From the NCBI RefSeq assembly GCF_014851815.1, contig NZ_JACVAJ010000001.1, forward strand, positions 1,426,001 through 1,490,000: a stretch of 64,000 nucleotides of DNA, given 5' to 3'. Positions 3,093-63,195 of this stretch are shown one piece after another. The notes beneath the pieces were generated by a model. The model made no database searches. It was not told the DNA's origin and worked only from the letters and a program-made list of their open reading frames with translations. The DNA is from Pseudoxanthomonas sp. PXM01 (GTDB lineage Bacteria; Pseudomonadota; Gammaproteobacteria; Xanthomonadales; Xanthomonadaceae). Position 1 is the first letter of the stretch, and every line of letters starts with the position of its first letter. Both the position numbers and the translations under genes were made by a program.

Positions 3093-3479
3093 TCAATCCC
3101 GGGTCTGGAAGTGGTACGCCACGACATCGGGCGTCGGCCGCATGCTGACCTCCCCGTCCACTTCAACGACAGGCAGCGCATAGCCGCGAGGACCCGCCAG
3201 CCCCGTGCCGTCGAACCGCTCATGGAACGCGCTGCTTGCACGGGGAAGATCGAGATCGACGTAAGTGACCGGGATGTTGCGGCTCTGCAGGGAGGCGAGC
3301 ATCTGCCGGGTGTAGCCACAGCCGTCGCGACCGTAGACCAGGACCGAGTTGCGGGAGGATTCGACGATCGCGGCATCCATCATCGATGCCTCAAGGTGCG
3401 CCTTGATGCGCTTCCAGGCGTGATGCCCGGCACCCAGGGCCACCAGGATGGAAACCAGGATCAGGAAAGTACGCGACAT
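3093..3479 (-). CDS. Membrane-anchored glutaredoxin-like protein with monothiol CGYT motif
   Basis: A 128-residue protein with an N-terminal hydrophobic anchor or uncleaved signal (residues 3-18). A thioredoxin-fold domain follows: VLVYGRDGCGYTRQML holds the active-site motif as C-G-Y-T, with one cysteine, and LPVVEVDGE supplies the cis-proline. This resembles monothiol or CxxT glutaredoxins, but an export or anchor sequence is unusual for that family. It would sit at the membrane, probably facing the periplasm, where glutathione-linked chemistry is not standard. The role is open: disulfide or mixed-disulfide handling, or a non-catalytic thiol-fold protein. It is transcribed away from pilU and alone. 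Confidence 0.6.
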   Translation of the reverse strand: MSRTFLILVSILVALGAGHHAWKRIKAHLEASMMDAAIVESSRNSVLVYGRDGCGYTRQMLASLQSRNIPVTYVDLDLPRASSAFHERFDGTGLAGPRGYALPVVEVDGEVSMRPTPDVVAYHFQTRD

Positions 3480-44643: not shown

Positions 44644-45413
44644 TGCAGTGCCTCGAGATACGCGGTGCCGCCGATCTGCCGTACCTGCCGCTGGATGCCC
44701 GCGGCGCGGCGCTGCACGTAGGGTCCCGGGCGATGGGCGCTATAGCGGCGCGGCGACGGCAGCACCGCGGCCAGGCGTGCGCTCTCGTTCGCGGTCAGGC
44801 CGGACGCGTCCTTGCCCCAGTAGCGCCGCGCCGCCGCCTGCCCGCCGTACACGCCGTCACCGAATTCTGCGACGTTGGCGTAGACCTCCAGAATGCGCGT
44901 CTTCGGCCACAACGCCTCGATCAGCACGGTGTACCAGGCCTCCAGCCCCTTGCGCGCCCAGCGCGTGACGCGGTTGCTGCCCTGCCAGAGGAACAGGTTC
45001 TTCGCGACCTGCTGGCTGATGGTGCTGGCACCGCGAAGACGCGTCACCGGCCGGCCGCGCTTCTCGGCGCGCTCGACCATCTTGCGGTTGTGCACGCGCG
45101 CCTTCTCGATCGCGCCCAGGTCGAACCCATGATGGCTCGCGAAGTTCTGGTCCTCCGCGGCGACCATCGACAGCGGCAGGCTCGCCGCCATGCGGTCCAG
45201 GTCACGCCACTCATAAGCCACCCGGAAGCCGAACTCGCCCTTCCCCCACGCCTCGACCACGCGCGCCGCCATGAAGGCCGTAAACGGCGGATCCACGAAA
45301 CGCAGCACGACCACCTGCAAGACACTGGCCGCCGCGAACAGGAAAGGCAGTGCGAGCAACCAGCGGAACCAGCGGCGTCCCCGTGACGCCTTTGCGACCG
45401 GCACTGCGCTCAT
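44640..45413 (-). CDS. mtgA: Monofunctional peptidoglycan glycosyltransferase
   Basis: 257 residues. One N-terminal membrane helix ([20 protein letters not shown], about 15-38), then the GT51 core: [20 protein letters not shown] (catalytic Glu region), [20 protein letters not shown], and [20 protein letters not shown]. It polymerises lipid II into glycan strands. The ATG at 45413 gives a protein close to family length; the frame is open to 45491 but the extra part is polar. Coupled to the downstream glycosyltransferase and divergent from hslO. Confidence 0.95.
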
Positions 45414-60053: not shown

Positions 60054-61844
<1,791 letters not shown>

Positions 61845-61871
61845 GCGCCACCCTCGAAAAGTGAGACCAAA

Positions 61872-61880
61872 ATGATACCA
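61872..61880 (-). promoter_or_regulatory. Extended -10 promoter of pckG
   Basis: On the minus strand TGGTATCAT matches the extended -10 form (TGnTATnAT). No good -35 is present, as is allowed for extended -10 promoters. +1 would fall near 61865, giving a ~20-nt leader before the ATG at 61844. The repeat array starts about 130 bp further upstream. Confidence 0.5.
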
Positions 61881-62009
61881 ATGTCTTGTCCTTCAGACGA
61901 GGAGAACGCGCACGGGGTCGGCTGGCGGTCAGCCGGAAGGCGACGGACGGCGGGCGGGCCTGTTGGCGCGCGATGAGAGGGGCGGCGTCTCAAGACTGGG
62001 AGAGAAAGG

Positions 62010-62432
62010 CCGGGAGATCGCGCCCGGAAGGCCATGGATGGGCCTCTGAGCGCCATCGATCGGGCTCCGAAGGCCATCCATGGGGCTCTGAGCTCCAGGG
62101 ATCGGGCCCGGAAAGCCATCGACGGGCCTTTGAGCGCCATGGCTAGGGCTCGGAGGGCCATCGATGGGGTCCAGAATGCCAACCGCCGGGGCTTTTCGTG
62201 CCATCGGTGGCTTTCCGGGCGCCATCGATCGAGCGCCGAGCCTCGTTGATCGGGCTTGGGAGGCCATCGATGGTGCTCGAAGGCCCATCAATGGGGCTCA
62301 AAGAGCCAGGAAGATGGGGCTCGGAGGGCGATCGATGGGGCCCGGAGCCCCATCGCTGGCATTCCCAGCGCCATCGATGGCATTACGGGCTCCGACGATG
62401 GCTTTCGGAGCGCCATCGTCGGCACTCCGGAC
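62010..62432. repeat. Tandem array of about twenty degenerate 21-bp units
   Basis: Reading from 62010, the sequence divides into successive 21-bp units with consensus GCCATCGATGGGGCTCCGAGC. Examples start at 62031, 62052, 62073, 62115, 62157, 62221, 62263, 62370 and 62412. Two units are one or two bases longer (62178-62199, 62305-62327), so the reading frame is broken. Many units contain ATCGAT or the 12-bp palindrome GCCATCGATGGC. A 21-bp period keeps frames open, so both strands show heptad-repeat pseudo-ORFs, none with a ribosome site. It accounts for most of the 61845-62451 gap between pckG and the regulator gene. Confidence 0.9.
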
Positions 62433-62451
62433 TCGATCTCCGCCGTGGCCG

Positions 62452-63195
62452 CTACACCTCGCGCGAGCGCCGGTACGGATTGAACAGCTGCAGCAGCCAC
62501 GGCTTCTGCGCCAGCACCAGGCTGACGCCCACGCGGTCTTCCGCCGGCAGTGTGGCGTCGCGGGCGAGCAGCGCGTCGAACTCGCGCGCGACTTCCTCCA
62601 GCCGCTGCCGCAGCTGCTTCACCCCGTCGATGCTCAGGCTGCCGCTGAGCAGCAGCAGCGCGTCCTGTTCGCCATCGAAGGGATCGGCGAAGTAGTCGGT
62701 CAGCAGGGTGTGGCGGAAATAGCGCTCCATCGGCCCGTCGGCGCGCCAGCGAAAATTGCGTGCTGTCAGCGCGCGGCCGCGGTTGCCCGGCATCAGCTCG
62801 ATGATGCCCAGCCGGTCCAGCTTCACCAGCAGCCCGGTCCACTGCGCCGGGGTGAAGCCGAAGTGGCCCAGCACATCGTCCTGCCGCCAGCGGTTGAGGG
62901 TGAGGAACAGCGCCAGCAGCAGCGTGGGCTCGTCGACCAGCGCCTGTTCCTGCGCCTCACTGAGCAGCGCCATCGCCTTGCGCCCGCGCGAGGCCTCTGC
63001 ACTGAGTTCGGCCAGGCCGACGTCGAGCACGTCGCAGATCTGTTCCAGCCGCTGCAGGCTCATGGCCCGGCGGGAGAACATGCGCTTCACCGCCGCCTCG
63101 CTCATGCGGATGCGCGCGGCGAGCTCACGGTAGGTCAGGTTCTGCGCGCGCAGGCAGCGCTTCAGGGCATCGACCAGGTCGACCGAGACGGCCAT
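62452..63195 (-). CDS. XRE-type HTH transcriptional regulator with C-terminal ligand domain
   Basis: 247 residues. HTH near residues 8-50 (RELAARIRMSEAAVKRMFSRR), then a domain of about 180 residues with ALLLALFLTLNRWRQDD and FGFTPAQWTGLLVKLDRLG, resembling a helical effector domain. The family is common in Xanthomonadaceae; a recognised ligand is lacking. Start at 63195 (MAVSVDLVDALKRC) preferred over the open frame to 63300, because it follows AGGAA and the HTH sits near the N-terminus. Divergent from the secreted unknown and DUF2145 genes, which are probable targets. Its 3' end abuts the 21-bp array. Confidence 0.8.
   Translation of the reverse strand: MAVSVDLVDALKRCLRAQNLTYRELAARIRMSEAAVKRMFSRRAMSLQRLEQICDVLDVGLAELSAEASRGRKAMALLSEAQEQALVDEPTLLLALFLTLNRWRQDDVLGHFGFTPAQWTGLLVKLDRLGIIELMPGNRGRALTARNFRWRADGPMERYFRHTLLTDYFADPFDGEQDALLLLSGSLSIDGVKQLRQRLEEVAREFDALLARDATLPAEDRVGVSLVLAQKPWLLQLFNPYRRSREV

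Follow-up and report, generated by a model that had tools for sequence, protein, structure and literature searches.

The 64,000-nucleotide stretch of Pseudoxanthomonas sp. PXM01 DNA analyzed here (the window) carries, between pckG and the gene of an XRE-type regulator, a tandem array of imperfect palindromes, which raises the question of whether this array serves the genes beside it, belongs to a wider system, or is a repeat with no function. The original prediction placed it at 62010..62432 and offered three explanations: a multi-site operator, a nucleoid-protein array or a selfish minisatellite. A circular 21-state model recovers an array of about 20 imperfect 21-bp palindromic units (20.1), the bounds being about 6 bp further to the right, at 62016-62438. 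The score is 315 bits, against at most 8.1 bits in 60 shuffles, and the same score and bounds are obtained with a model lacking the units of this genome, trained on 158 units of other genomes (at most 9.6 bits in 60 dinucleotide-preserving shuffles). Moreover, TRF reports periods of 21, 42, and 84 bp at 62016-62169 and of 21 bp at 62264-62359, and GCCATCGATGG at ≤1 mismatch is matched 18 times in the window, 15 of them within the array (expected 2.9, shuffle maximum 9). Two short window segments (≥30 bp), 3381-3424 and 45106-45147, are also weakly scored by the unit model.

In the unit consensus, a 12-bp dyad core, SCCATCGATGGS, precedes a 9-bp linker, NYTCSGARN. Because the linker is itself a second dyad, dyad centers recur every 10.5 bp. 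The two length changes that had been noticed in the array are confirmed, being +1 at 62184 and +2 at 62309-62310. Also, its exclusion as a CRISPR holds, given a degenerate core and a short patterned linker in place of a constant repeat with unique spacers. The features of the locus are collected in Table 1.

Table 1. Coordinates of the window array cores and of the neighboring features (positions in the window).
Feature	Position	Strand	Remarks
pckG, downstream gene	60054..61844	-	name from the original prediction
pckG promoter-proximal block	61845..61905	-	with AGACCAAAATGATACCAATGTC on the + strand
Example near-consensus core, GCCATGGATGGG	62031..62042	.	core spacings 21, 42, 43, 44
Other core starts of the window array	62052, 62073, 62115, 62136, 62157, 62200, 62221, 62263
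Other core starts, continued	62284, 62328, 62349, 62370, 62391, 62412
Sole exact 12-bp core of the window array, GCCATCGATGGC	62370..62381	.
Gap from array to XRE stop codon	62439..62451	.	13 bp
XRE-type HTH regulator gene	62452..63195	-	Pfam HTH_26/HTH_3

The window array is one of a family. Three more arrays are present in the same genome, at C4:79319, C4:756022, and C6:313676, and among 61 genomes (its own, 36 of the same genus and 24 of the same order) arrays are matched in 13, all belonging to the same genus. This gives 44 loci, four from the window genome and 40 from the 12 others, one of them (in G020) being a remnant of 1.7 units. According to BLASTN of the 2.5-kb flanks, the 44 loci fall into seven places, with 12 loci at site A (that of the window array), 10 at B (including the remnant), 6 at C, 5 at D, 5 at E, 4 at F, and 2 at G. 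Five further loci occupy the same places, namely full arrays at A and B in G291, a remnant at G in G022 and remnants at D and G in G020; these small remnants are intergenic (L184 at C1:2179776 of G022, site G; L185 and L186 on C15 of G020, sites D and G). All 12 genomes with full arrays from the 61-genome search have one at site A, as does G291, whereas an array confined to one strain, with no conserved position, would have spoken against the original prediction. As detected in the same search, bearers hold two to six of the seven sites. Among the 43 full arrays, the called segments measure about 250-424 bp, varying in length mostly by steps of 21 bp, and orthologous arrays align unit by unit (fraction in register 0.83-1.00, 144 pairs). 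This agrees with the earlier view of an old array, conserved in position and not freshly expanded. Between sites, z-scores for collinearity were high even in the wrong orientation, as the unit-permutation null itself broke register. In G015, the one complete genome mapped, arrays lie at 197, 899, 1955, 2477, and 3574 kb, with dnaA at 0.3 kb and a dif-like site at 2097 kb (three mismatches to the pattern used); a symmetry of the array loci about ori and ter was sought in this genome, and no pattern emerged.

The places have a common position relative to genes. The array starts 17-23 bp from the last aligned codon of the XRE gene in 12 of 12 arrays at site A, and the corresponding distances are 4-57 bp at B (seven of nine arrays, the other two being without a detected neighbor), 18-61 bp at D (5/5), 24-45 bp at E (5/5), 45-66 bp at F (4/4), and 137-138 bp at G (2/2); at site C only a 5' neighbor was tested. 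Measured 5' gene ends are at least 84 bp from the arrays. Moreover, two convergent genes flank site E with their 3' ends in five of five cases, and site D is also located between convergent genes, with 149-638 bp to the second one and possibly a small extra gene in between. Pfam names six of ten neighbors (XRE HTH, NamZ, DUF2894, gp19-like, glyoxalase-family, and NorB), and others are putatively pckG, ligA, an M16 peptidase and, at site D, a nuclease; no common pathway is apparent among them. Upstream of the ligA start (L130, L131), the array-less G012 and G036 carry another tandem array, of ~15-bp units GATAAGAACACGCCG.

The arrays are also marked by the hexamer TGTGAG. With 60-bp margins included, 20.1 kb of array sequence contain 80 copies, against 19 in 329.5 kb of flanks, a density about 69 times lower. 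At sites C-G, 21 of 22 arrays have it, the copies mostly sharing one orientation within an array and often lying 21n+1 bp from each other. At site B it occurs in seven of nine arrays, mostly just beyond one end, but it is missing from all 12 arrays of site A, the window array included. In the arrays of sites C-G a directional motif, (C/T)TCAATGTGAGA(CA)GAT, recurs as well (L066, L073, L078, L085, L077, and L095).

Regarding the internal geometry, cores matching at least 8 of 10 bases were collected from the 44 loci, giving 315 spacings of up to 70 bp. In 311 of them the spacing is 21n to 21n+3 bp (183 at 21 bp, 18 at 22, 47 at 42, 33 at 43, 6 at 44, 15 at 63, 6 at 64, 2 at 65, and 1 at 66), the remainder being three at 17 bp and one at 40 bp, and none falls at 20, 41, or 62 bp; within the genus, spacing changes are of +1 to +3 per repeat and never of -1. 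The arrays are therefore helically phased, with dyads spaced by whole helical turns, and the anticipated two-fold site every two turns is found throughout the family, beside unrelated genes too. For A/T content, a local optimum lies at a period of 10.52 bp (power at 10.5 bp of 0.89, versus 0.24 when shuffled), although the strongest period tested is 5.3 bp (4.0 versus 0.19). Within the units, mirror positions reveal no compensatory change, there being no positive covariation above z 1.6 for core or linker pairs. Core 3/10 pairs are rarer than independence predicts (0.54 versus 0.63, z -3.3), and pair 12/1 across the linker deviates likewise (z -3.5). Thus, half-sites vary independently or oppositely, as those of a dimer would and unlike stems, which speaks against hairpins. 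A restricted alphabet of the triplet beside the core was considered and discarded, with 26 triplets seen and no closed set. Isolated cores outside arrays show no excess in the window genome (5 in G000) over array-less genomes (8 in G012, 10 in G035, and 7 in G025), the counts in G020 and G014 being 9 and 2. Stop-free frames of 212 codons or more enclose 17 of the 18 such cores retrieved from G000, G015, and G022, including all five from G000.

A comparison of 20 disjoint ortholog pairs indicates that, within the arrays, the core bases are more constrained than the variable positions. Differences are seen at 405 of 2928 sites for core positions 2-11 and at 736 of 3262 for the remaining phases (Fisher 5.8e-19). 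These figures, like the others of this paragraph, are somewhat biased to conservation since pairs were picked greedily by similarity and phases are model-derived. The divergence is lower in the core in 17 of the 20 pairs and not lower in three. At 0.226, the non-core phases are near the fourfold-site rate of neighboring genes (0.12-0.30), which the core exceeded in 3 of the 10 pairs where both were available. Because the organism is GC-rich, divergence was also stratified by base, being 0.128 in the core versus 0.219 in variable phases for G/C (Fisher 6e-10) and 0.154 versus 0.401 for A/T (Fisher 8e-24), both over the 20 disjoint pairs; fourfold sites of pckG and the XRE gene, in six site A pairs, diverge by 0.165 (GC) and 0.693 (AT). 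In most site A pairs, the array has diverged further than its flanks. Changes polarized in 18 pairs comprise 210 losses at 1809 consensus sites and 30 gains at 237 others in the core, and 144 losses at 1376 and 18 gains at 140 in the conserved linker positions. As losses outnumber gains 210 to 30, the arrays decay on balance. The gain rate is nonetheless about three times the neutral expectation, taken as one third of the loss rate, an excess that is not special to the core because the linker has a similar pattern of gains and losses.

On a tree of pckG and XRE codons (21 genomes), the 12 full-array bearers form part of one subclade, within which G014 (sister of G001) and G020 (sister of G022) are nested. 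At site A, G014 is without an array and G020 has one unit-like remnant; at site B, G020 retains 36 bp, and G014 is also without the upstream gene. In total, the arrays of four sites (A, B, D, and G) have collapsed in G020, and no array is seen in G014. In the pckG-XRE intergenic region of G014 (L103), an inverted repeat of GCGGGCCATGCCCGC type takes the place of the array. Also, the site A arrays of G001 and G030 are unusually alike (divergence 0.09) for species that are not sisters on this tree, which suggests recombination at the locus. In wider samples, 11 of 297 genomes of the family were matched, eight of this genus (including G291, newly found, and G020, with remnants) and three from two other genera, whereas among 398 genomes of the phylum the only match is the window's own genome; weak arrays may be missed in both samples, as two candidates per genome were scored. 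One of the three from other genera, a weak match in G098, was rejected on inspection, being no array and apparently coding sequence.

Outside the genus, the same core builds arrays, at 20-22-bp spacing and with other linkers, in two genera of the family, g58 (G133; 11 units, linker TGCGCGAGG) and g45 (G245), both with flanks unlike those of the seven sites, and in Luteimonas mephitis, at a locus cut by its end. Beyond the family, a Thermoanaerobaculia MAG (G341), whose phylum we take to be Acidobacteriota, gives 23 matches on 14 contigs. The ten distinct arrays inspected (L187-L196 among the loci) are built of ACCRTCGATGGN units with a mostly TCAAAACGA linker, and many are intergenic. The TCAAAACGA linker is directional. 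Spacings are mostly 21 bp, with 20, 22, and multiples, and 41 also present, and no mirror covariation is detected (pooled counts are for 12 loci, two of which repeat others and are counted twice). This recurrence of the core carries no chance estimate, since the search used this very core. Among viral contigs, three records have one two-site pair each (two of identical sequence), around which no longer array is seen, and neither the plasmid collection PLSDB, with the window array as query, nor a phage collection, with the L011 array, gave a match. In the openly licensed PMC literature, no description of such arrays was found in the titles and abstract openings of the matches listed.

Compared with known systems, the arrays are closest in setting to REP/BIME elements, palindromes tagged by GTAG/CGTC and associated with RAYT transposases, which are likewise intergenic, clustered, and often near gene ends (PMC3733652). 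However, GTAG is scarcer in the arrays than in the flanks (0.91 versus 4.15 per kb), as is CGTC, the arrays show no covariation of stems, and they are strictly 21-bp phased and restricted to few fixed loci. At the genome level, Y1_Tnp (RAYT) is present in all 21 genomes compared, of which 12 have full arrays and nine do not. Plasmid replication iterons and parS clusters have helically phased sites at 20-22-bp spacing, for which cooperative binding is expected. The arrays share this spacing and phase; however, their loci are scattered over both chromosome arms (in G015, the one complete genome), the window array is on a 1.98-Mb contig with no counterpart in PLSDB, and no replication initiator is among the six Pfam-named of the ten flank proteins. 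Bacterial minisatellites or VNTRs consist of tandem units with local duplications, and the arrays resemble them in their variable copy number, but differ in that degenerate units stay in register between species and in the position-specific constraint of the core.

Of the three explanations offered at the outset, the nucleoid-protein array fits best, and freely mobile selfish DNA is disfavored by the restriction of 44 loci to seven places. The window array belongs to a multi-locus family of helically phased dyad arrays, and the reading we prefer, although with slightly less than even confidence, is that these would act as a landing platform for a putative dimeric DNA-binding protein. Such a protein would recognize CCATCGATGG and bind one face of the helix every two turns, so that a row of ~12-20 dimers may assemble, perhaps cooperatively, over 250-424 bp. 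This row could form a local nucleoprotein platform behind a stop codon, for chromosome organization, silencing or sequestration, and not the operator of any single gene. If each site is weak and redundant, the degeneracy would be accounted for, as would a constraint that is modest and losses that occurred independently. A binding protein did not emerge from the analysis, nor did a gene co-occurring with the arrays among those checked, the XRE gene and Y1_Tnp included. Further points against the platform are the net decay, with a linker pattern like that of the core, the incomplete occupation of the seven sites, the pairs in which the core is not the slower part, the greater divergence of array than flanks at site A, the 5.3-bp period, the 20- and 41-bp spacings in the MAG, the better folding of natural units, and the TGTGAG motif, which the window array lacks. 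A broader version, which we consider rather unlikely, would extend the system to two phyla, with a putative protein family assembling on phased arrays of CCRTCGATGG that serve as fixed anchor points between genes, and possibly directional subunits marked by TCAATGTGAGA; in layout it is reminiscent of laboratory lacO arrays or of a multi-site centromere.

Readings closer to the genes at hand fare worse than the platform. A multi-site operator for pckG or for the XRE gene would account for the full occupation of site A and for arrays lying 142-185 bp from pckG, but it is very improbable, because arrays lie behind stop codons and two of the seven sites are between convergent genes, with equivalent arrays beside ligA, namZ, norB, and others. 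Moreover, a search of 25 genomes for pckG (no match in 12), with its upstream region read in 13 array-less relatives, shows that the neighborhood is partly kept where there is no array: the promoter-proximal block is retained in 7 of 13 (G014, G020, G012, G013, G035, G036, and G005) and the XRE gene adjoins pckG in 9 of 13, the other four having pckG without a detected adjoining XRE gene. Among those that keep the pair are seven relatives outside the subclade (G012, G013, G025, G026, G033, G035, and G036). The XRE gene is thus not array-specific, its protein was ruled out as the array partner, and the special link to either gene, originally considered, is not sustained. That the repeat encodes a heptad protein, 21 bp being seven codons and long open reading frames crossing the array, is hardly conceivable: spacings of 22, 43, and 44 bp shift the frame, the arrays lack a 3-bp period (power 0.15, versus 13.69 in flanks), and the window array has one to three stops in each of the six frames, none being stop-free throughout, in line with the initial judgment that it is not coding. 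An RNA or cruciform hairpin element of REP/BIME type, acting behind stop codons in termination or mRNA stability, agrees with the placement, arrays being within 66 bp of the neighbor's last codon at sites A, B, D, E, and F where a neighbor was found, although 137-138 bp away at G. The RNA fold computed for the window array's minus strand reaches -240 kcal/mol (z -8.9), and strong folding would be expected of any palindromic array. Column shuffling of the units weakens the folding (natural units, mean z -1.76, SE 0.29), an effect that duplicated units could bring about, structure being the alternative, whereas unit order is irrelevant (mean z -0.33, SE 0.22; 26 of 43 full arrays in both tests). 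With the mirror positions free of compensatory change and no Rfam family at gathering score over the arrays at eight loci, we consider the hairpin improbable. The Rfam matches obtained in the window region are three, all far below gathering, including a sub-threshold microRNA overlapping the array (E 0.07), and the seven other loci gave one, sRNA-Xcc1, ~1.8 kb from the array in L066.

The strongest rival to the platform is a satellite, amplified at several loci in the ancestor of the clade and slowly decaying since, with no present function, the phase-specific rates being residual or mutational; we give it an appreciable chance, though a minority one. The net loss of consensus bases, alike in the linkers, agrees with it, as do non-core phases evolving near the fourfold rate, repeated independent losses such as the collapse at four sites in G020, and the 42- and 84-bp higher-order repeats of the window array. 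However, the core constraint holds inside base classes, gains are about threefold above the neutral expectation, and the one-sided spacing changes are difficult to reconcile with plain decay. The same core in other genera and in the MAG of another group also stands against it, though with no estimate of chance.

Finally, laboratory constructs use phased arrays of like sites to bring proteins to a locus. If functional, about seven natural arrays kept at the same places across species, with a core common to a distant group, would provide a new handle on chromosome organization or silencing, and the two nested species without full arrays offer a ready comparison for finding the partner protein. 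If functionless, the arrays would represent a traceable case of a bacterial satellite that arose at several loci and then decayed.
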